Shown here: piece by piece, positions 5,763-35,807 of the stretch
Layout of the letters: each line of letters opens with the position of its first letter
Position numbering within the stretch: position 1 is the first letter of the stretch
Made by a program: the position numbers and the translations under genes
NCBI RefSeq assembly: GCF_004168035.1
Contig: NZ_SDPU01000020.1
Location: forward strand, 486,999 to 550,998
Direction: 5' to 3'
DNA length: 64,000 nucleotides
Source: Nocardioides iriomotensis
GTDB lineage: Bacteria > Actinomycetota > Actinomycetes > Propionibacteriales > Nocardioidaceae
Notes under the pieces: model-generated
Told to the model about the DNA's origin: nothing
Databases searched by the model: none
The model's input: the letters and a program-made list of their open reading frames with translations, nothing else

Positions 5763-6173
5763 GTGCCCAAACCGAGTTCGATACCCTTGGTGACCGTGAC
5801 GACGCCTCGCCGAAAGACTCGCGCGCGCCAGCTCCGGCGCGCCCTTATCATGACCCCCGCGGCCGCCCTCGTGGCGCTCGCCGCCCCCGCTTCGGCGGCG
5901 CCCTCGCAGTGGGACCCCGTGGAGCCGGTCTCCGCGCTGGACTTCCTGCTGGTGCTGGTGATCATCCCCGGCGCACTGTTCCTCGTGATCTTTCTCCTGT
6001 CGTACCTCGGCGGGATGATGCGGTCCGAGTCGAGCTACCAGCCGGGCCTCGCGTGGCGCAACGAGCCGGAGTGGTTCGGCGGCCCCCGCGGCGGTCTGGA
6101 CAAGGTCGACGAGCAGCCCACGGTGACGGCCGGCGACGCCCCCGAGCGGGGAGGTGCCAGTGGCCGCTGGTGA
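5763..6173 (+). CDS. Small actinobacterial membrane protein, unknown function
   Basis: About 136 residues with two hydrophobic stretches: an N-terminal signal-like segment (ALIMTPAAALVALAAPASA, with an AxA cleavage-like site) and one transmembrane helix (LDFLLVLVIIPGALFLVIFLLSYLGG), then a charged cytoplasmic-looking tail. I do not recognise a named family. The start is uncertain: GTG codons occur at 5763, 5790 and 5796, and the last two would still keep the signal-like region. Its 3' end overlaps the DUF5130 gene, so the two are probably co-translated and may act together in the envelope. Confidence 0.75.
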   Translation: MPKPSSIPLVTVTTPRRKTRARQLRRALIMTPAAALVALAAPASAAPSQWDPVEPVSALDFLLVLVIIPGALFLVIFLLSYLGGMMRSESSYQPGLAWRNEPEWFGGPRGGLDKVDEQPTVTAGDAPERGGASGRW

Positions 6174-6632: not shown

Positions 6633-9239
6633 TCAGGCGTCGGCCGCCTGCGCCGCCAGTGCACGGACGATGTCGGCGCGGACCTCGGAGACGTACCGCT
6701 TGGCGGCCGGGTTGGCGTCCGACGACGCCAGCCAGGCGTCGACCTTGTCGAGCGTCTCCTGGCTGGTCAGCGCGCGCGGGAACATGTACTCCAGCGCGGT
6801 CGACGCGATCTGGGTGCCCTTGTCCTCCCAGATGGTGTCGGCGACCTCGAGGTACCTGTCGAGGTACGGCGCCAGCACGTCGGGCTGCCCGGCGGTGTCG
6901 AACACGTAGGCGATGTGCCGCTGCGTCTCGTTGGGCGTGCCGTCGCGCACCGCGCCGTCCGCCCAGGACTTCTCCTTGGTCTCCGGGTCCGGGAGCACGG
7001 CGAACGCCGCTGCGGCCTTCTCGTGGCCGGAGATCGTGTTGTCCGACGCGAGCTCCTGCTCGATCCGGGCCTTGTCGGCGTGGCCACCGGCCGCGAGCGC
7101 GGTGAGGATGATCCAGCGCATGTCGGTGTCGATGCGCAGGCCCTCGAGCTGCTCGCTGCCGTCGAGGAGGCCGGCCAGGAACGCCATGGCCTCGTCGCTC
7201 CGGCCGGCGCCGGTGTAGGACGACGGCGGGATCCGCTTGCCGTGGGTGCCGGCGAAGCACTTCATGAACGTCAGCTGGTTGTCGCTGCCCGGAGCGGCGT
7301 TGCGCAGCTCGGTCCAAAAGCCCTGCTCCCACTCCAGCCGCAGCGCGTCGCGCTTCGACGGGTGCGCGAACTGCTCGATGGCGACCTGGGCGTACTGCGG
7401 CAGCTGCTTGACCGCGGTGTCGTCGGTCTCGGCGCCGATGCCGCGCAGCACGAGCGCGACGAAGTCGCCGGCCGACATCTCGGCGTCGCGGGTCATGTCC
7501 CACGCGGCCGACCAGCACAGCGCCCGGGCGAGCGAGTCGTCGAGCGTGTCGATCGACTCCACGACGGTCGCCAGCGACCGCTCGTCGAGGCGGATCTTGG
7601 CGAAGGTGAGGTCGCCCTCGTTCAGCAGCAGCAGGTCGGGCTGCTTCTCGCCGACGAGCTTCGACACCTCGGTGGAGGCGCCCTCGATGTCGGTCTCGAA
7701 CGACGAGCGGCGGACCAGGCGGGCCGGCCCTCCTGAGCCTGTCGAAGGGTCGGCCCGGTCGTAGAGCGCGATGCCGATCCGGTGCGGGCGGAGCGTCGGG
7801 AACTCGGCCGCCGCGGACTGGGCGACCGCGAACGTCGCGTAGCTGCCGTCGGCGTCGAGGGTGAAGTCGGCCGCCAGCGTGTTGACGCCCGACGTCTGCA
7901 GCCAGGCGTTGGCCCAGGTGCGCAGGTCGCGGCCGGAGGTCGCCTCCAGTGCGTCGAGCAGGTCGGTGAACTCGCTGTTGCCGAACGCGTGCTTCTGGAA
8001 GTACGCGCGGAGGCCGGCGAGGAACTCCTCCTCGCCGACGTACGCCACGAGCTGCTTGAGCACCGAGGCGCCCTTGGCGTAGGTGATGCCGTCGAAGTTC
8101 ACCTCGACGGCCTCGAGGTCGTAGTTGTCGGCCGCGATCGGGTGCGTGGTCGGCAGCTGGTCCTGGCGGTAGGCCCAGTTCTTGCGGTGGTTGGTGAAGC
8201 CTGTCCAGGCCTCGTCGTACTGGGTCGCGTGCACCGCGGCGTGGTGCGCGGCCCACTCGGCGAACGACTCGTTCAGCCAGAGGTCGTCCCACCACCTCAT
8301 CGTCACGAGGTCGCCGAACCACATGTGCGCCATCTCGTGCAGGATCGTGTTGGCGCGCTGCTCGTAGAACCAGCGGGCCTGCTGGCTGCGGGGGAGGTAC
8401 TCGTCGCGCAGCGTCACGCAGCCGGCGTTCTCCATCGCGCCGTTGTTGAACTCCGGCACGTAGAGCTGGTCGTACTTGTGGAACGGGTACGGGAAGCCGA
8501 AGGCCTGCTCGAAGAACTCGAAGCCCTGCTGCGTGACCAGCACGAGCTCCTCGGTGTCGAGGTACGGCGCGACCGACTGGCGGCAGTAGTGGCCGAGCGG
8601 GATCGTGCCGTGCTTGCCCTCGTAGACGTCGAGGACCTCGTGGTACTCGCCGGCGACGACGGCGGTGACGTAGGTCGACATCCGCTCGGTCTGCGGGAAG
8701 TTCCACACCGCCGTGCCGCCGGGCTGCGCGACCGGCTCCGGGGTCGGCGCGTTGGACACGACCTTCCAGTCGGCCGGGGCGGTCACGTTGAACGTGAACA
8801 CGGACTTGAGGTCGGGCTGCTCGAACGTGGCGTAGATGCGCCGCGCGTCGGGGACCTCGCACTGGGAGTACAGGTAGACGCGGCTGTCGGCCGGGTCGAC
8901 GAAGCGGTGCAGGCCCTCGCCGGTGTGGCTGTAGAGCATGTCGGCGGTCACGCGGAGGACGTTCTCGGCCTGGAGGTCGTGCAGCGCGATCCGGCCCTGG
9001 GCGTAGAGCTCGGTCCAGTCGAGCTCGCGGCCGTTGAGGGTCAGCGCGGAGATGTCGGCGCCGACCAGGTCGACGAAGGTGCTCGCGCCGGGCTCGTGGC
9101 AGCGGAAGGTCAGCGTGGTGGTGGAGCGGAAGGTCTTGGTGCTTCCCGTCGCCAGGTCGAGGTCGACGACGTAGGAATCCACGTCCAGGAGGGCCGCGCG
9201 GGCGCGCGCCTCCTCCCGGGTCAGGTTCGTTCCAGGCAT
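6633..9239 (-). CDS. pepN: Aminopeptidase N (M1 zinc metallopeptidase)
   Basis: An 868-residue M1 aminopeptidase that removes N-terminal residues from peptides in the cytoplasm. Substrate-binding GAMEN is at residues 267-271, the zinc site HEMAH at 301-305, and the downstream zinc-ligand glutamate in WLNESFAEW about 19 residues later. The ERAP1-like C-terminal domain is complete. The ATG at 9239 (MPGTNLTREEARARAALL) matches actinobacterial PepN; the open frame continues upstream without homology. Oddity: around residues 496-505 an insert reading ADPSTGSGGPA is encoded by a short interspersed repeat (see 7732-7749) in the linker before the C-terminal domain. Confidence 0.96.
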   Translation of the reverse strand: MPGTNLTREEARARAALLDVDSYVVDLDLATGSTKTFRSTTTLTFRCHEPGASTFVDLVGADISALTLNGRELDWTELYAQGRIALHDLQAENVLRVTADMLYSHTGEGLHRFVDPADSRVYLYSQCEVPDARRIYATFEQPDLKSVFTFNVTAPADWKVVSNAPTPEPVAQPGGTAVWNFPQTERMSTYVTAVVAGEYHEVLDVYEGKHGTIPLGHYCRQSVAPYLDTEELVLVTQQGFEFFEQAFGFPYPFHKYDQLYVPEFNNGAMENAGCVTLRDEYLPRSQQARWFYEQRANTILHEMAHMWFGDLVTMRWWDDLWLNESFAEWAAHHAAVHATQYDEAWTGFTNHRKNWAYRQDQLPTTHPIAADNYDLEAVEVNFDGITYAKGASVLKQLVAYVGEEEFLAGLRAYFQKHAFGNSEFTDLLDALEATSGRDLRTWANAWLQTSGVNTLAADFTLDADGSYATFAVAQSAAAEFPTLRPHRIGIALYDRADPSTGSGGPARLVRRSSFETDIEGASTEVSKLVGEKQPDLLLLNEGDLTFAKIRLDERSLATVVESIDTLDDSLARALCWSAAWDMTRDAEMSAGDFVALVLRGIGAETDDTAVKQLPQYAQVAIEQFAHPSKRDALRLEWEQGFWTELRNAAPGSDNQLTFMKCFAGTHGKRIPPSSYTGAGRSDEAMAFLAGLLDGSEQLEGLRIDTDMRWIILTALAAGGHADKARIEQELASDNTISGHEKAAAAFAVLPDPETKEKSWADGAVRDGTPNETQRHIAYVFDTAGQPDVLAPYLDRYLEVADTIWEDKGTQIASTALEYMFPRALTSQETLDKVDAWLASSDANPAAKRYVSEVRADIVRALAAQAADA
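7732..7749. repeat. Short interspersed repeat inserted in frame in pepN
   Basis: The 18-mer CCTGAGCCTGTCGAAGGG, flanked by GC-rich near-complementary arms (GGGCCGGCCC before, GGGTCGGCCC after). From memory, sequences built on CTTCGACAGGCTCAG occur as dispersed repeats in many high-GC genomes. Here it is read in frame as DPSTGSGG inside aminopeptidase N. A shorter relative, TCGACAGGCTC, occurs at 35877-35887. Confidence 0.6.
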
Positions 9240-28059: not shown

Positions 28060-29979
28060 GTGACGGACTCGAACCTCAGCCCCCTGACCCTGCCCGAGAG
28101 CGACGCGGAGGCGTGGGTCGCCGACCGGACCGACACCGAGCTCGCCCGCGCGGCCGAGCTGGTCGCCACCATCAAGGCCGGCGGCCACGAGGGCTCGGCG
28201 CTGGAGCTGTGGAACGACGTCAACATCGCGCTCGGCAACGCCTTCGCGGTCGCGTCGCTGATGTCGAACGTGCACCCCGACGAGGCCGTCCGCAACCGCG
28301 CCGAGGCGGCGGAGCAGGCCGCGTCGAAGCTGCTCACCGAGATCGGGCTCGACCGTGAGCTGTACGAGGTGCTCGACGCCGTCGACCCGCAGGGGCTCGA
28401 CGACGCCGGCCGCCGGGTACTCACCCTGACCCTGCGCGACTTCCGCCGCGCCGGTGTCGACCAGGACGACGACGTACGAGCGCGGCTCAAGGAGCTGTCG
28501 GAGCGGCAGACCGAGGTCGGTCAGGAGTTCTCCAAGAACATCCGCAACAGCGTCCTCACGATCAGCCTCGACCCGGGCCGGCTCGACGGGCTGCCGGCCG
28601 ACTACGTCGAGGCGCACGCACCCGGTGACGACGGTCAGGTGACGATCACGACGGAGTACCCCGACTACGTCCCGTTCATGACGTTCGCGACCGACCGCGA
28701 CGCCCGGGCCGCGCTGCTCCACGAGTTCCGCAACCGCGCCTGGCCCGAGAACGACGGCGTGCTCGAGGAGCTGCTCACCCTCCGCGCCGAGCAGGCCCGG
28801 CTGCTCGGCTACGCCGACTGGCCGTCGTACGACGCCGAGGTCAAGATGATCGGGAAGGGCTCGGCGATCCCGGAGTTCATCGACCGGATCGCCGACGCGG
28901 CCGAGGCGCCCGGCCGGCGTGACGTCGCGGTGCTGCTCGCCCGGCTCCAGCAGGACCACCCCGACGCCACCGCGGTCGACGGTCGCGACGGGTCGTTCTA
29001 CGCCGAGGTGATCCGGCGCGAGAACTTCGACGTCGACGCCCAGCTCGTCCGCACCTACTTCGACTTCCAGAAGGTCCGCGCCGGCCTGCTGGACGTGACC
29101 GGCCGGCTGTTCGGCATCGAGTACGTCCCGGTCGACGTGCCCGTCTGGCACGAGGACGTGGCGACGTACGACGTGCTCCGCGACGGCGAGCGGCTCGGCC
29201 GGATCCACCTCGACCTGCACCCGCGCCCGGGGAAGTACTCCCACGCCGCGCAGTTCGACCTCGTCCCGGGCATCCGCGGCCGGCAGCTGCCGCAGGGCGT
29301 GCTGGTCTGCAACTTCTCCAAGCAGCTCATGGAGCACGACCACGTGGTCACGCTGTTCCACGAGTTCGGCCACCTCGTCCACCACGTGCTCGCCGGCGGC
29401 CACGACTGGGCCCGGTTCAGCGGCGTGGCGACCGAGTGGGACTTCGTCGAGGCGCCCAGCCAGATGCTCGAGGAGTGGGCCTGGGACCACGACGTGCTGA
29501 AGACGTTCGCCACCGACGCGTCCGGCGCGCCGATCCCCGCCGAGCTGGTCGCCAAGATGCGCGCCGCCAACGAGTTCGGCAAGGGCTACTACGCCCGCAC
29601 CCAGATGTTCTACGCCGCGACGTCGTACTACCTGCACCAGCGGGTGCCCGCCGACCTCACCGCGCTGATGGTCGAGCTGCAGGCGAAGTACGACCTCTTC
29701 GGCTACGTCCCCGACACGCACTTCCACACGTCGTTCGGCCATCTGCACGGCTACGGCTCGGGCTACTACACGTACATGTGGAGCCTGGTCATCGCCAAGG
29801 ACCTGTTCTCGGCCTTCGACCCCGACGACATGTTCGACACCACCGTCGCGCACCGCTACCGCGACCGGATCCTCGCCGCCGGCGGCAGCAAGGACGCCGC
29901 CGACCTCGTCGCCGACTTCCTCGGCCGCCCCTACCACTTCGACGCCTTCGAGGCCTGGCTGCAGCGCCCTCCGGGCTGA
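28060..29979 (+). CDS. M3 family metallopeptidase (oligopeptidase)
   Basis: A 639-residue thimet-oligopeptidase-like zinc peptidase, cytoplasmic, degrading short peptides. The zinc motif is HEFGHLVHHVL with His434, Glu435 and His438, and the third ligand glutamate lies in WDFVEAPSQMLEEW as usual for M3. A glycine/tyrosine-rich FHTSFGHLHGYGSGYYTYMWS region near the C-terminus lines the active site. GTG start. It follows clpX by 70 bp and is the first gene of a segment that separates clpX from valS. Confidence 0.93.
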   Translation: MTDSNLSPLTLPESDAEAWVADRTDTELARAAELVATIKAGGHEGSALELWNDVNIALGNAFAVASLMSNVHPDEAVRNRAEAAEQAASKLLTEIGLDRELYEVLDAVDPQGLDDAGRRVLTLTLRDFRRAGVDQDDDVRARLKELSERQTEVGQEFSKNIRNSVLTISLDPGRLDGLPADYVEAHAPGDDGQVTITTEYPDYVPFMTFATDRDARAALLHEFRNRAWPENDGVLEELLTLRAEQARLLGYADWPSYDAEVKMIGKGSAIPEFIDRIADAAEAPGRRDVAVLLARLQQDHPDATAVDGRDGSFYAEVIRRENFDVDAQLVRTYFDFQKVRAGLLDVTGRLFGIEYVPVDVPVWHEDVATYDVLRDGERLGRIHLDLHPRPGKYSHAAQFDLVPGIRGRQLPQGVLVCNFSKQLMEHDHVVTLFHEFGHLVHHVLAGGHDWARFSGVATEWDFVEAPSQMLEEWAWDHDVLKTFATDASGAPIPAELVAKMRAANEFGKGYYARTQMFYAATSYYLHQRVPADLTALMVELQAKYDLFGYVPDTHFHTSFGHLHGYGSGYYTYMWSLVIAKDLFSAFDPDDMFDTTVAHRYRDRILAAGGSKDAADLVADFLGRPYHFDAFEAWLQRPPG

Positions 29980-29983
29980 CAAC

Positions 29984-30041
29984 CCCGATTCGTCCGCGAA
30001 ACTGCGGTCGTCCTACGCGGAGCGGTTGCGGACGAATCGGG
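29984..30041. repeat. 58-bp nested inverted repeat, copy A
   Basis: Perfect 14-bp outer arms CCCGATTCGTCCGC (29984-29997) and GCGGACGAATCGGG (30028-30041) around a 30-nt centre that can form a second small hairpin. It starts 4 bp after the M3 peptidase stop and covers the last nine codons of the DUF559 gene. Its centre matches copy D (inverted) at 22 of 30 positions and copy C at 20 of 30. Confidence 0.9.
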
Positions 30042-31017
30042 TCGGTACGCCGAACTGCCGGAGGTCGTCGATGATGCCCGACGGATCGAGGCGGAGCTCC
30101 ACGCTCGCGCATCGGAGGACGGCGCGTCCGGTCAGCACGACGGCACGCTCGCGGCGCATGTCGCGCCACCAGTGGTCACTGCGCATGTGGAACGACCCGT
30201 CGATCTCCAGCACGAGCACCCGCCCGTCGGGCAGCACCCACTCGCAGTCGAGGAAGCGCCACCGGCCGGTTGCGTCGCGACGCATGCGCTGACGCGTCGG
30301 GGCCTCGAGTCCCGCGTCCTCGCACCGTCGGGCGATGTCGATCTCGGCGAACGACTCGGCCCCTCCGGCGATGTCGCCGAGTGTCAGTGCGAACGTGCGC
30401 CCGTGGCGCAGCTTGCGGATCTGGTCGATGCCGAGCAGCAGCTCGTCAGGGGTCGCCAAGCCCTGCTGGACGGTGGCGGCCAGCAGACCGATGGCGCGGC
30501 GAAGATAGCGGTCGCGTTCGGCAGTGAGCAGCGCCGCGTGCGGGACCCGCAGACGCGGCAGAGCCGAGTCGCGCTCGATCCAGTCGCGGTAGTGCCGGCG
30601 GGTCTGCCTGAAGTGGAATCCCGGCAGCTTCGACACCTCGTCGCTCTTTGCGGTGATCACGTGGATCACCGGGTCGACCGTCCACCGCAGCCCGGCCACC
30701 TCGCACGCCGTGATGTGGCTGAGCGCGGACAGCGGACCGGCGTGGAGGACCCCGAGCCACATGCGCTGCGCGCGGGTCAGCGCGGCGTTCTGCAGAGCGA
30801 CGACCGTGGGGGCGGCCGCTGTCCACCGACCTGCCATCAGCTCGGCGTCGACCCGGTGGCGGGTCCAACCGCGATCGCGCAGCTGGGCGCGTGAGAGGAC
30901 GCCGAGCTGACGAGTGGCGGCGTCACGCAGCTCTGGGTACCGATTCGTCCGCCACAGCGCGGGGTCGCCAGGCGACGCGTCCGCGGACGAATCGGGGAGG
31001 CGTCGGGACGTGGGCAT
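30013..31017 (-). CDS. Orphan AbiEi-like winged-helix protein with DUF559 (Vsr/PD-(D/E)XK-like) domain
   Basis: About 334 residues. The N-terminal part (about 30-110) is an AbiEi-antitoxin-like winged helix (ATRQLGVLSRAQLRDRGWTR, then LSHITACEVAGLRW), and the C-terminal 90 residues are a DUF559 domain of the Vsr endonuclease fold, with catalytic-looking DCEWVLPDGRVLVLEIDGSF (Glu271, Asp273), a following His, and RRERAVVLTGRAVLRC. No AbiEii toxin gene is adjacent. The ATG at 31017 would place repeat copy B inside residues 8-26, and copy A encodes the tail TRFVRNRSA. A later start is possible. Function unknown; DNA cleavage or binding is inferred. Confidence 0.8.
   Translation of the reverse strand: MPTSRRLPDSSADASPGDPALWRTNRYPELRDAATRQLGVLSRAQLRDRGWTRHRVDAELMAGRWTAAAPTVVALQNAALTRAQRMWLGVLHAGPLSALSHITACEVAGLRWTVDPVIHVITAKSDEVSKLPGFHFRQTRRHYRDWIERDSALPRLRVPHAALLTAERDRYLRRAIGLLAATVQQGLATPDELLLGIDQIRKLRHGRTFALTLGDIAGGAESFAEIDIARRCEDAGLEAPTRQRMRRDATGRWRFLDCEWVLPDGRVLVLEIDGSFHMRSDHWWRDMRRERAVVLTGRAVLRCASVELRLDPSGIIDDLRQFGVPTRFVRNRSA
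30939..30996. repeat. 58-bp nested inverted repeat, copy B
   Basis: Same geometry (14+30+14) with one mismatch at the outermost left base: CCGATTCGTCCGC at 30940-30952 and GCGGACGAATCGGG at 30983-30996. The 30-nt centre has diverged from the other copies. It lies inside the predicted N-terminal coding region of the DUF559 gene. Confidence 0.85.
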
Positions 31018-31070
31018 GACGGCATCGTCCACCGACCGGCGCAGCGGCGTCGGCCGTCGTCCACAGGTGC

Positions 31071-31143
31071 GACCCGACCCCGATTCGTCCGCAGAACGGC
31101 GTGCGTTGCACGCGAAGCGATTGCGGACGAATCGGGTCGGGTC
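31071..31143. repeat. 58-bp nested inverted repeat, copy C, with extended arms
   Basis: Core 31079-31136 with perfect 14-bp arms. Here the pairing extends outwards (GACCCGACC on the left, TCGGGTC on the right, one bulged C), so the stem is about 21 bp. The centre contains GCGTGC-GTT-GCACGC, a perfect inner hairpin. It lies upstream of the DUF559 gene and touches the stop codon of the DUF6351 gene, where it could act as a terminator. Confidence 0.9.
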
Positions 31144-33031
31144 AGCGCGTCCAGACGCCGGGCGCGGTGAACTCCAGCCAGGTGCCGTCGGGCGGTGCCT
31201 GGTCCACACCCTTCCGGCCGTAGTCGCACACCCCGCCCGCGAACACCTCGCGCAGGCGGGCCCACTGGGCGTCCGTCGTCGTCGGGTACGTCGAGCGGGT
31301 CGGCGCGGTGGTGCGACAGGTGATCACGTTGCTCGCGACCGGGCCGCCGGCGACGATGCGCGGCGAGGCGTAGGACGGGTAGAGCCGGTTGCAGCGCGTG
31401 TCGCCGCGGTAGACCTGCCGCTCGCGGACCCGCTCCCCGTCGCGCGTCCAGCACGAGTCGACGAGGTGCGCCGGCCTGCTGCGCGCGACCCGGGCGTGCG
31501 CGGAGCCGGGGCGCGTGTCCCGGCGGACGTTGGCGATCCACTCGTCCATCGCGTCGAGCGCGTAGGTCATCACCGGCGCCTCGGAGTCGAAGAGGCCCCG
31601 CGCGTCGCTCTCGGTCAGCATCACCTGGTTGCCGGCGTCGCCGTTCGCCGCGACCAGCCGCGCCCGGGTGCTGAACGACTGGTAGCGCATGTGGATGTCG
31701 CCGCCGCTCTGCTGGTCGGTGTAGGCGCGGTAGTCGATCAGGGGTACGTCGCCCAGCCCGTTGCCGCCGTACAGCATGCGGCCGGTGGCGTACGCGTTGT
31801 GCCGCGCCACCGGGTCCGCCGTGGTCCGGCTCGCGGTCGGGTTCGCGTCGACGTCGAGCCCACCGACTCCGGCGTTGAGGTCGAGGAACTGGTCGGCGGT
31901 GATCGCGCCGTCGCGCCAGGCCTGCAGGCCGTACTGCACGCCGGTGTTGTCGCTCGGGATCCGCGCGAACCCGGTCGCCGGGTCGACGCCGTAGGTGTTG
32001 CGGCCGTGGTCCCAGACGGTGCCGCGGGCGCCGGTCGGGTTGGTCGCGGCGTCGTACCGCACCTCCGGCGGCACCGAGCCGTCGAACTCGGCGTCGGGGT
32101 CGAGCCGCTTCGCGCCGTCGCTCATCGACGCCAGCGCGTTGGGCACGCCGAAGCCCGCGACGGCCTGCTGCTGCGCGCTGGTGAACGACCCGGGGTGGGC
32201 GTCGAACCAGTTCTTCAGCACCCGGCTGTCGAACAGCATCTGCGACGTCCCGAACCCGACGTCCGGGAACGAGCAGCCCGCGATCACGCCGTCGAGCAGG
32301 CCGGGGTAGTTGTCGGCGATCTGGTGGCCCTGGTAGCTGCCGCCCGAGCAGCCCCAGCCGATCGTCCAGCGCGGCGCGCCGAAGTCCTGCTCGAAGACGT
32401 GCTTGGTCTGCGCCATCACCTCGGCGGCGAGCAGGTCGTCGCAGCTGTGGCCGAAGACGTTGAGCGAGCTCGACGCCACCGCGAACCCACGCTCCAGCAT
32501 CGAGGGGACCAGCACGCCGCCGGTGCCGGGACCCTGGCGGTACCAGCCGCCGCGGCAGCCGCCGCCGAACGTGTAGACGAGCCGCTCGTTCCAGCCGGGG
32601 GAGGGCGTCGTCGCGTCCGGCTCCACGCCGTCGCTCGGGTCGTCGAGCACGGCGATCTCGTAGATGCCGCGGTCGGCCGTGCCGGTCTGCACCCGCACGA
32701 TGAACGGCACCCGCTCGCCCCCGACGTCGGTCCAGGCCAGGTCGGCCGGCCGCGGCTTGTCGGCCGGCAGGGGAGTCCAGCCACCGCCGGTGGTGCGGTA
32801 GACGTAGTCCGTCTCCGTGGGTACGGCGCACTCCGGCCCGGTCGCCGGCGGGAGCATCGACCCGTCAGCGGTGCGGAACTCGGCCGACTCGCAGAAGAAC
32901 GGTGTCTCGCGCGGACCGGCGAAGCGGGGCGGCCCGTCGCTCGCCGCGCCCGACGCCGGCAGGGGCGGCACGAGCACGAGCGTGCCGAGGAGCAGGGTCA
33001 CGGAGAGCAGGGTCGAGCGGACGCCGCGCAT
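31142..33031 (-). CDS. Secreted DUF6351 family protein (alpha/beta-hydrolase-like)
   Basis: A 629-residue exported protein. Signal peptide at residues 1 to about 28 (MRGVRSTLLSVTLLLGTLVL, then PPLPASGAAS). The body resembles the DUF6351/tannase-like alpha/beta hydrolases, with the nucleophile-elbow-like GWGCSGGSYQGHQ and ample cysteines for disulfides (for example FGGGCRGGW, GHSCDD, DSCW, RCNRLYP). Probably an extracellular esterase; substrate unknown. The ATG at 33031 is followed at once by the signal peptide; the frame upstream is not homologous. It is bracketed by repeat copies C and D, and is probably accessory. Confidence 0.85.
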   Translation of the reverse strand: MRGVRSTLLSVTLLLGTLVLVPPLPASGAASDGPPRFAGPRETPFFCESAEFRTADGSMLPPATGPECAVPTETDYVYRTTGGGWTPLPADKPRPADLAWTDVGGERVPFIVRVQTGTADRGIYEIAVLDDPSDGVEPDATTPSPGWNERLVYTFGGGCRGGWYRQGPGTGGVLVPSMLERGFAVASSSLNVFGHSCDDLLAAEVMAQTKHVFEQDFGAPRWTIGWGCSGGSYQGHQIADNYPGLLDGVIAGCSFPDVGFGTSQMLFDSRVLKNWFDAHPGSFTSAQQQAVAGFGVPNALASMSDGAKRLDPDAEFDGSVPPEVRYDAATNPTGARGTVWDHGRNTYGVDPATGFARIPSDNTGVQYGLQAWRDGAITADQFLDLNAGVGGLDVDANPTASRTTADPVARHNAYATGRMLYGGNGLGDVPLIDYRAYTDQQSGGDIHMRYQSFSTRARLVAANGDAGNQVMLTESDARGLFDSEAPVMTYALDAMDEWIANVRRDTRPGSAHARVARSRPAHLVDSCWTRDGERVRERQVYRGDTRCNRLYPSYASPRIVAGGPVASNVITCRTTAPTRSTYPTTTDAQWARLREVFAGGVCDYGRKGVDQAPPDGTWLEFTAPGVWTR

Positions 33032-33122
33032 TGGAACCTCCCGAGAAGCGGTCCAGAAACCGGTTACATCGGGTCTATCGCATGCGTGACGACCGCCACA
33101 AGGCGCCGTCTCACGCGCCAAA

Positions 33123-33180
33123 CCCGATTCGTCCGCGATGCCTCCGCGTGAGACGGACGCAGTTTCACGGACGAATCGGG
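33123..33180. repeat. 58-bp nested inverted repeat, copy D
   Basis: CCCGATTCGTCCGC (33123-33136) and CGGACGAATCGGG (33168-33180), one mismatch in the inner end of the right arm. Its reverse complement matches copy A at 22 of 30 central positions, so it is the same element inverted. It lies between the DUF6351 start and the valS stop. Confidence 0.88.
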
Positions 33181-33188
33181 GTGGGGCC

Positions 33189-35807
33189 TCAGGCCCCGGC
33201 GTCCTCCGGAGCGATCTCCGCGGCGACGGCGATCTCGGCGTCGTCGGTCGGGGTGAACGCTAGGTCGCCGACGATGTTGCCGGAGGCCTTCAGGTCCTCG
33301 GTGGCCTTCGCGGCAGCGGCGAGCTGCGCGGACGGCCCCGTGACCGTGACCGACGAGAGCGCCGTGCGCATCTTGACCTTCGCCTGCGACTTCGCGCCGC
33401 GGACGCCGGTGAGGACCGCGGCGACGGCGGCCAGCATGGACGGCTCGGCGGAGGCCGCGGAGCCGAGCTCGGTCACGGTCGGCCAGGACGCCCGGTGGAT
33501 CGAGCCCTCCTGCCACCACGACCAGACCTCCTCGGTCACGTAGGGCAGGAAGGGCGCGAGCAGCCGCAGCTGGGCGTGCAGCGCGATCGCGAGCGCGGCC
33601 TTGGCCGACGCGGCGGCGTCGTCACCGCGCGCGCCGTACGCCCGCTCCTTGACCAGCTCGAGGTAGTCGTCGCAGAACTCCCAGAAGAACTTCTCCGTGA
33701 CCTCGAGCGCCGTCGTGTAGTCGTAGGCGTCGAACGCGTCGGTCGCCTTGTCGATCACGTTCGCCAGCCCGCCGAGCATCGCGCAGTCGACGGGCTCGCT
33801 GACCAGCGACGGCTGCAGCGAGGTGGCGCCGACGCTGCCCAGGACGAACTTCGAGGCGTTGAGCACCTTCATCGCCAGCCGCCGGCCGACCTTCATCTGG
33901 GTCTCGTCGAACGGCGAGTCGAGGCCCGGCCGCGACATCGCGGCCCGCCAGCGCACGGCGTCGGAGCCGAACTTCTCGAGGATCTCGGTCGGGACGACGA
34001 CGTTGCCCTTGGACTTCGACATCTTCTTGCGGTCGGGGTCCATGACGAAGCCGGAGATCGCGGCGTGCGCCCAGGGGATGACGCCGTTCTCGTGGTGCGC
34101 GCGGACGACCGTGGCGAACAGCCAGGTGCGGATGATGTCGTGGCCCTGCGGGCGCAGGTCCATCGGGAACGTCCGCTCGAACAGGTCGGGGTCGTCCTCC
34201 CAGCCGCAGATGATCTGCGGCGACAGCGACGAGGTCGCCCAGGTGTCCATCACGTCGGGGTCGCCGATGAAGCCGCCCGGCTTGCCGCGCTGCGCCTCGT
34301 CGTAGCCGCGCGGCGCCTGCGCCGACGGGTCCACCGGCAGCTCGGCCTCGGCCGGCAGCAGCGGGTGGTCGTAGTCGGGCTCGCCCTCGTCGTCGAGCGG
34401 GTACCAGACCGGGAAGGGGATGCCGAAGAACCGCTGCCGGCTGATCAGCCAGTCGCCGTTGAGGCCCTCGACCCAGTTGGTGTAGCGGTGCCGCATGTAG
34501 TCGGGGTGCCAGTCGATCTCGCCGCCGCGGTCGATGAGCTCCTTGCGCAGCTCGGCGTCCCGGCCGCCGTTGCGGATGTACCACTGGCGCGTGGAGACGA
34601 TCTCCAGCGGCTTCTCGCCGCGCTCGTAGAAGTTCGTCATGCGCTGCGTGGGCTTCGGCTCGCCGTCGAGGTCGCCGGACTCCCGCAGGGCCGCGACCAT
34701 CGCCTCGCGGGCGCTGAACGTGGTCTTGCCCGCCAGCTCTGCGTACGCCGCCGCGGCCCGCTCGGACGACAGCCACTCGGGCGTCTCGCGGTGCAGCCGG
34801 CCGTCGCGGCCGATGACCGTGCGGACCGGCAGCTGCAGCTCGCGCCACCACATCACGTCGGTCAGGTCGCCGAACGTGCAGCACATCGCGATGCCGGCGC
34901 CCTTGTCCATCTCGGCGGCGGCGTGCGGCAGCACAGGGATCTCGACGCCGAACACCGGCGAGGTGACGGTCGAGCCGAATAGCGGCTGGTAGCGCTCGTC
35001 GTCGGGGTGCGCGATGAGCGCGACCACCGCCGGGATCAGCTCCGGGCGGGTGGTCTCGATGTGCACCGGCTGCCCGTCGGCACGATGGAACGCGACCCGG
35101 TGGTAGGCGCCGGCGTAGTCACGCGCCTCGAGCTCGGCCTGGGCGACCGCGGTCTGGAAGGTGACGTCCCACAGGGTCGGAGACTCCTGCAGGTAGGCCT
35201 CGCCGCGTGCGTAGTTGCGCAGGAACGCGCGCTGCGACGCCGTCTGCGACCGGCGGCCGATCGTCGTGTACTGCTGCGACCAGTCGACCGACAGACCGAG
35301 GGTCCGCCACAGCGACTCGAAGACCTTCTCGTCCTCCTGCACCAGCTCGTCGCACAGCTCGATGAAGTTGCGGCGGCTGACCGGCACCTGCTTCTTCGCG
35401 TCAGGCTTCTCCGGCGGGGTGAAGTCGGCGTCGTAGGGCAGCGTCGGGTCGCACCGCACGCCGTAGTAGTTCTGCACCCGGCGCTCGGTCGGCAGGCCGT
35501 TGTCGTCCCACCCGATCGGGTAGAAGACCTCCTTGCCGCGCATCCGCTGGAAGCGCGCGACGAGGTCGGTGTGCGTGTAGGAGAACACGTGGCCGACGTG
35601 CAGCGACCCCGAGACGGTCGGCGGCGGGGTGTCGATCGAGTAGACCTGGTCGCGGGTCTTGCTCCGGTCGAACGCGTAGGTCCCGTCGGTCGACCACCGC
35701 TCGACCCAGCGGGCCTCCAGCCCCTCCAGTGCGGGCTTGTCCGGTACGACGACCGCGGGAGGTGCGGTCGTCTCGGACAGGTCGCGCGGACTGGGCTGGT
35801 TCGTCAT
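33189..35807 (-). CDS. valS: Valyl-tRNA synthetase
   Basis: An 872-residue class Ia synthetase. The HIGH motif is HVGH at residues 70-73, KMSKS is intact at 595-599, the editing (CP1) domain lies between, and the C-terminal end has a coiled arm ([18 protein letters not shown] region). Charges tRNA-Val and hydrolyses Thr-tRNA. ATG start at 35807. Divergent from folC with 110 bp between; the valS-folC neighbourhood is the conserved actinobacterial one, although valS here is in the opposite orientation to folC. Confidence 0.98.

Follow-up and report, generated by a model that had tools for sequence, protein, structure and literature searches.

Bacterial genomes commonly contain short palindromic repeats. 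Homing endonucleases of the Vsr-fold (EDxHD) and PD-(D/E)XK types have genes that invade a site by way of cleavage and repair; we know of no matched palindrome pair accompanying them. In REPtrons (PMC6006769, PMC8266576, PMC3733652) a stable gene lies between short palindromes; these also occur dispersed, mostly outside genes, and co-evolve with the enzyme. The enzymes tied to the spread of such repeats in these papers are of the HUH type (TnpA-REP). A similar layout is found in a stretch of 64,000 nucleotides from Nocardioides iriomotensis (contig NZ_SDPU01000020.1, positions 486,999 to 550,998; hereafter the window): palindromes of 58 bp flank a gene and recur elsewhere in the genome, which amounts to 4.71 Mb in 47 contigs. 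The four palindromes of the window, designated A to D, are rather probably the cognate palindromes of a single-gene selfish cassette, in which a protein with an AbiEi-like and a DUF559-like half is encoded between two of them, together with dispersed solo copies; binding, cutting and copying by the protein would account for their spread.

The pairing of gene and palindromes extends well beyond this window. Relatives of the gene were collected at 74 loci from named genomes, chiefly of Nocardioides and also of Knoellia, Phycicoccus, Microbacterium and Microlunatus, and 68 of them were used for counting after six loci with short flanks had been dropped. An upstream and a downstream palindrome that match one another (local score of at least 18) are present in 48 of the 68 loci and around none of 307 pseudo-genes placed in the same loci; at a stricter score of at least 24 the number is 46. 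Most relatives in the family are bracketed in this way, and the arms agree across one gene and differ between genomes: palindromes drawn from different loci reach the pair-level score in 7.4% of 3000 random pairings. The relative orientation of 50 matched pairs is direct in 24, inverted in 20 and tied in six. When 396 genomes from the whole phylum were searched with a profile, relatives were detected in 32, that of N. iriomotensis included, and wider windows at distant loci revealed a matched pair in 10 of 29, the pseudo-gene control covering the 68-locus set alone. One of these ten (L208, genome G543) carries an identical 53-bp pair within about 1 kb, possibly an assembly effect. A relative of 28% identity on an unverified scaffold labelled Bacteriophage sp. 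has a matched pair as well. The gene and its private palindrome pair are conserved together, chiefly in Nocardioidaceae and also in other families. An earlier note on this DNA had described the repeats but missed the gene that A and B bracket and the conservation of gene plus palindrome pair, with other sequences, elsewhere.

The bracketed protein appears to join two known modules. AbiEi models of PADLOC match its N-terminal half (2.1e-9), and in an AlphaFold2 model (mean pLDDT 85) residues 23-216 resemble the AbiEi antitoxin 6y8q (Z 12.7, rmsd 4.0, 183 aligned residues, 7% identity; Foldseek E 2.6e-5). AbiEi antitoxins bind inverted repeats within their own promoters (PMC7319586). The C-terminal half (model residues 219-324) matches DUF559 and MTES_1575 weakly, below the Pfam cut-off; the best values among 16 members are 4e-4 (3/16) and 8e-4 (3/16), and the window member reaches 0.0038. 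At E<=0.01 these 16 members match AbiEi_4, DUF559 and MTES_1575 in Pfam and nothing else. MTES_1575 has been presented as a novel restriction endonuclease domain of the Vsr fold (PMC3710099), and the fold of the C-terminal half is similar to that of 3hrl, a putative endonuclease (Z 4.6), although not significantly so when modelled alone. Residues D256, E270 and D272 are invariant in 16 of 16 aligned members and fit a PD-(D/E)XK (D..ExD) active site, in which they would have a catalytic role. Palindrome B is translated as PDSSAD..RTNRY provided that the nuclease starts at the ATG at 31017. At another locus (L026, 1372-1488) two tandem palindromes are apparently translated successively in the N-terminus of the nuclease open reading frame.

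Within the N. iriomotensis genome the palindromes form a well-defined family. The earlier note had described four elements of 58 bp with fixed arms of 14 bp, and all four are present where it placed them, each exactly 58 bp long; the arms are near-fixed, being perfect in A and C, while B begins with A instead of C and the right arm of D carries a single substitution at its inner end. Arm matches with at most two mismatches number 8 against a mean of 2.44 in shuffled sequence, and none of 100 shuffles reaches 8. Alignment of the copies bears out the shared orientation of A and C and the inversion of D; the agreement of the A and D centres at 22 of 30 positions is confirmed by eye on the sequences, and the centre of B is indeed diverged, with 22 and 23 mismatches in 64 against the copy L009 in the two orientations, which is equally poor. 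The arms are not restricted to these four sites, since a genome-wide pattern search found the exact pair GATTCGTCCG...CGGACGAATC in 15 copies, well beyond the window, all of them 52 bp long across the trimmed arms (40-70 bp permitted), with the arms 32 bp apart; the reversed control pattern of these arms had no match in the genome. The confinement to four sites that the earlier note had named as grounds for giving up its reading is thereby contradicted. The centre is homologous and oriented in 12 of the 15 (B, L008 and L013 deviate), and the arms reach out to ACCCCGATT..AATCGGGGT in many copies. A degenerate extra copy at G000:C16:207665-207722 (G000 being the window's own genome) was overlooked by the exact-arm search. 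The compensatory changes for which the earlier note had suggested looking do not appear: covariation among 14 of the 15 copies, the poor copy L013 being omitted, shows no excess over shuffles, and the arm sequence is near-invariant, an invariance that says little about decay because the search itself required the first 10 bases of every arm to be constant. The missing covariation gives no support for an RNA-structure reading, and Rfam covariance models have no match at E<=1 in window positions 29500-33700. No match was found in the PLSDB plasmid database, so that carriage on plasmids is not backed.

Dispersal of the palindromes is linked to possession of the gene. Among 341 genomes of the family, GATTCGTCCG palindromes occur in 10 (up to 38 copies) and those with a second arm type, GTCGTCCGCCT, in 19 (up to 12 copies); the gene was searched for at E<=1e-40, with at most six candidates scored per genome. 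Where GATTCGTCCG palindromes number at least three, six of seven genomes hold the gene, against 91 of the 334 others (p 0.0025); for GTCGTCCGCCT the corresponding figures are seven of eight and 90 of 333 (p 0.0008). Taken together, 13 of the 15 genomes with at least three copies of either type hold the gene, as do 27% of the rest. With a single copy sufficing, the link for GATTCGTCCG is seen in seven of 10 genomes (p 0.007). The arms are also lineage-specific: the exact arms of the N. iriomotensis family are found in none of six congeners, three of whose genomes are at most 90% complete. In one congener (G002), of which 1.2 of 4.9 Mb were scanned, four palindromes bear the arms proper to the G002 cassette, two beside the nuclease gene, one in-frame in a short-chain dehydrogenase gene and one not assigned to a gene.

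The locus itself is lineage-specific (Table 1). In three congeners the distance between the aligned ends of the Peptidase_M3 and valS genes is about 48 (G002), 196 (G001) and 278 bp (G003), and neither the nuclease gene nor the DUF6351 gene is at this junction in any of them; these short gaps lacking both genes imply that N. iriomotensis holds an insert of about 3.2 kb. In the comparison with G002 identity stops 24 bp ahead of A and restarts 31 bp beyond D. The placement between clpX and valS given in the earlier note is correct, with clpX taken from that note and its translated reading frame, and is completed here by the Peptidase_M3, nuclease and DUF6351 genes that the interval additionally holds. 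The DUF6351 gene may be cargo or a separate arrival; a homologue elsewhere (L072) has no palindrome of this kind that we could find. The G001 junction (L068) contains an unrelated, near-perfect palindrome of 48 bp, recognised by eye, and no close relative of the nuclease was found in G001.

Table 1. Parts of the Peptidase_M3-valS interval, in window coordinates
Feature	Coordinates	Strand	Remarks
Palindrome copy A	29984..30041	-	58 bp; holds the stop codon of the nuclease reading frame; 4 bases past the Peptidase_M3 stop codon
Lineage-specific 3.2-kb insert	29984..33180		Between the Peptidase_M3 and valS genes
Palindrome-bracketed protein, 334 residues	30013..31017	-	AbiEi-like half and DUF559/MTES_1575-like predicted nuclease half
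Palindrome copy B	30939..30996		Centre diverged; within the N-terminal coding part of the nuclease
Palindrome copy C	31079..31136	-	Upstream of the nuclease gene, 61 bases ahead of its start; DUF6351 stop codon 5 bases away
DUF6351 (tannase-like) reading frame	31142..33121	-	Flanked by C and D; missing from this junction in three congeners
Palindrome copy D	33123..33180	+	Orientation opposite to that of A and C; valS stop codon 8 bases away; forms the right edge of the insert

Comparison of flanks indicates that whole cassettes differ inside the same chromosomal surroundings. Flanking DNA sorts 59 loci into 12 multi-locus groups and 12 singletons (L134 was left out of the grouping for its short downstream flank), and at least 15 loci share one chromosomal position, where L134 and L143 are also located. 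At this position L134 (Nocardioides abyssi) and L153 (Nocardioides sp. IC4_145) are instructive: their upstream DNA is 90% identical, their nucleases 50%, and their palindromes are different. In L134 coordinates the identity is lost at 5859 and regained at 6992, both points lying inside the outer palindromes (5852-5897 and 6963-7012); in L153 the corresponding break points are 143 bp ahead of the first palindrome and 24 bp beyond the last. The nucleases of L134 and L111 (N. oceani) are 83% identical, yet the L111 flank is less close to that of L134 (86%). In a comparison from which L157, L168, L169 and short matches were dropped, L110 and L165 likewise have flanks 81 and 87% identical around nucleases of 55% identity. 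Flank and cassette thus disagree, as expected under cassette exchange.

Solo palindromes at shared positions tell a similar story of genome-specific arms. Two copies in N. iriomotensis lie in-frame, in the linker of an E2 acyltransferase and in a loop of a carboxyl transferase, and palindromes of G003 occupy the same two places, bearing the arms of G003's own cassette: the one in the E2 gene is identical to a palindrome flanking the G003 nuclease at 46 of 50 positions, the one in the carboxyl transferase at 40 of 50, and neither aligns to its N. iriomotensis counterpart above a score of 9. The E2 gene of G002 has a decayed copy of the type proper to G002. In G001, where the gene has no relative at E<=1e-10, the carboxyl transferase is free of palindromes and the E2 gene shows no more than a match with 8-bp arms. 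As both loops vary in length among relatives, independent insertion and overwriting are indistinguishable here. In-frame copies are a minority, 5 of 49 in one set examined. In a biotin carboxylase gene of another family member, G211 (L174, 1501-1546), a palindrome sits in-frame between the ATP-binding domain and the C-terminal one.

The outer arms are private to each cassette, and the centre tends to GCYATRGC across families with unlike arms. A profile of 93 even-length palindromes, with both orientations pooled, has A at -1 in 63% and C at -3 in 69%, and 34 of 100 palindromes have YATR no more than 5 bp from the centre, compared with 6 of 200 windows placed off-centre; the centre of the N. 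iriomotensis family does not follow this consensus closely. Arm similarity tracks the middle domain of the protein (partial correlation 0.28, reached in none of 300 permutations, for 43 of the 50 matched loci), a suggestive link from which shared descent is not fully removed.

What could be the mechanism behind such associations? By analogy with AbiEi antitoxins acting on promoter inverted repeats, the AbiEi-like half would recognise the genome-specific arms, and the predicted PD-(D/E)XK half might nick or cut at the palindrome, perhaps near the conserved centre. Repair would then copy the palindrome, and sometimes the entire cassette, into the cut site. Solo palindromes would build up where harm is small, that is, behind stop codons and in-frame in surface loops. 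Protein and arms would therefore change together, and the arms would match the resident gene. What the data show is the association of gene and palindromes; binding, cutting, the route of copying and selfishness are inferred from it. A more general proposal, which we put forward tentatively and would not yet bet on, is that the cassettes represent an undescribed kind of mobile DNA in Actinomycetota, whose AbiEi plus PD-(D/E)XK protein reads a private palindrome and copies it, sometimes with itself, into cuts, overwriting older palindromes, with specificity residing in the fast-changing arms and cleavage at the shared GCYATRGC-like centre.

Several observations weigh against the selfish cassette. 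The nuclease half stays below Pfam cut-offs, and its best fold match, 3hrl, has an E of 0.15 when this half is taken alone. The winged helix, considered as the arm reader and set aside, tracks the arms no better than the rest of the protein does. No matched pair was detected in 20 of the 68 loci; the search demanded exact arms of length at least 8, and decayed palindromes are therefore missed. When one copy suffices, the link between GTCGTCCGCCT and the gene is weak (9 of 19 genomes, p 0.057), and two copy-rich genomes, G272 (12 copies) and G069 (19 copies, 77% complete), have no copy of the gene that passes E<=1e-40. The comparison with relatives yielded no empty site readable to the base, the orthologous loops and intergenic regions being too diverged for placing junctions or reading target-site duplications. 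Homologous recombination in the flanks could yield the exchange of cassettes with no help from the protein, and the residence of at least 15 loci at one position implies that the gene itself seldom reaches new places.

The alternatives to a mobile cassette differ in which of these features they accommodate. The palindromes might be operators or insulators through which an AbiEi-like protein represses its own gene, the dispersed copies forming its regulon and nothing being mobile. The fold is of the type that binds inverted repeats at its own promoter, and a palindrome is indeed present upstream in 62 of the 68 loci, though 124 of the 307 pseudo-genes have some palindrome there too (downstream, 59 of 68 and 87 of 307). 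The second palindrome, however, overlaps the stop codon or directly adjoins it in 31 of 50 matched loci, an unexpected place for an operator; the N. iriomotensis copies are mostly behind stop codons or within genes, and unlike cassettes are found inside the same flanks, all of which makes such a regulatory role unlikely. Proximity to stop codons is what would be expected from multiplied bidirectional terminators or stabilisers of mRNA 3' ends, with the gene merely insulated by two of them. Of the 13 N. iriomotensis copies counted as intergenic by a simple codon model of gene calling, a count that includes B though it is probably translated, 11 are located no more than 9 bp from a stop codon (coordinate difference 2-9), and the predicted hairpins range from -23 to -42 kcal/mol. 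This siting fits harmless positions as well as a 3'-end function. Yet a scan for intrinsic terminators found no site in 29700-33400, and the longest run of T within 12 nt on either strand beside the 15 copies is 3; the in-frame copies within genes also speak against transcript ends, and the agreement of private arms with the resident gene would be left unexplained. We regard this function as quite improbable.

Least probable in our view is a role in defence, with a self-regulated nuclease that spares palindrome-bearing DNA or attacks foreign palindromes, solo copies serving as decoys or immunity marks. Its appeal lies in the match to AbiEi models of a defence library and in the variation of cassettes at a fixed site, as is often seen in defence genes. 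Against it stand the one-gene composition of the cassette, which has no modification or toxin partner in the window (only the window was scanned), and the in-frame copies within metabolic genes, which are hard to read as marks.

The pairing of gene and palindromes is of broader interest. Dozens of loci at which a different protein family is linked with its own palindromes make palindrome spread and recognition directly testable, and the natural series of protein and target pairs offers material for reading a recognition code. The in-frame copies add a case of short DNA elements translated within metabolic enzymes. Similar nucleases might also turn out to serve, as their missing enzymes, REP families that have no transposase.

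How does the locus relate, finally, to described elements? Among the open papers listed by searches aimed at it, subscription journals and preprints falling outside this scope, none pairs DUF559, MTES_1575 or AbiEi fusions with palindromic repeats so far as titles and abstract openings tell. Type IV AbiE systems share the AbiEi antitoxin fold over residues 23-216; here the AbiEi-like half is joined to a nuclease-like domain, and the window cassette contains no AbiEii toxin gene, its neighbours being the DUF6351 and Peptidase_M3 genes and the other reading frames between A and B overlapping the nuclease in other frames. The MTES_1575 domain is elsewhere fused to HEPN, transglutaminase and helicase domains, palindromes going unmentioned in the text of that source (PMC3710099). 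Rickettsia palindromic elements are comparable in being in-frame in metabolic genes, but those described for Rickettsia are about 150 bp long (PMC10969869), whereas the present ones are about 58 bp, mostly intergenic and gene-associated. CGTC-tagged REPs, which are likewise dispersed palindromes and are stated to be without a dedicated transposase (PMC3733652), have stems of 8-9 bp and an unpaired tag; here CGTC, when present, is inside the stem. An affinity with REP- or MITE-like elements and a distinction from simple terminators had been proposed in the earlier note: the dispersed copies, the confinement of the exact arms to N. iriomotensis among the congeners compared and the lack of a T-tract speak for it; neither the enzyme nor the tag is that of a known REP family. 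No transposase model matches the bracketed gene; transposases elsewhere in the genome were not searched. The comparison with REPtrons is the closest in layout, and the differences lie in the enzyme, AbiEi-like plus DUF559/MTES_1575-like in place of the Y1 HUH TnpA-REP/RAYT (no HUH or Y1 transposase is found between the palindromes among the 16 members, Pfam E<=0.01), in the tag, neither an unpaired GTAG nor CGTC foot being part of the N. iriomotensis consensus ACCCCGATTCGTCCGC.., where CGTC is paired inside the arm, and in palindromes mostly 40-58 bp long with whole cassettes that differ in the same flanks. Because enzyme and tag differ, we do not file the locus as a REPtron; it is best read as a REPtron-like or homing-like selfish unit built around an enzyme unrelated to the HUH transposase.

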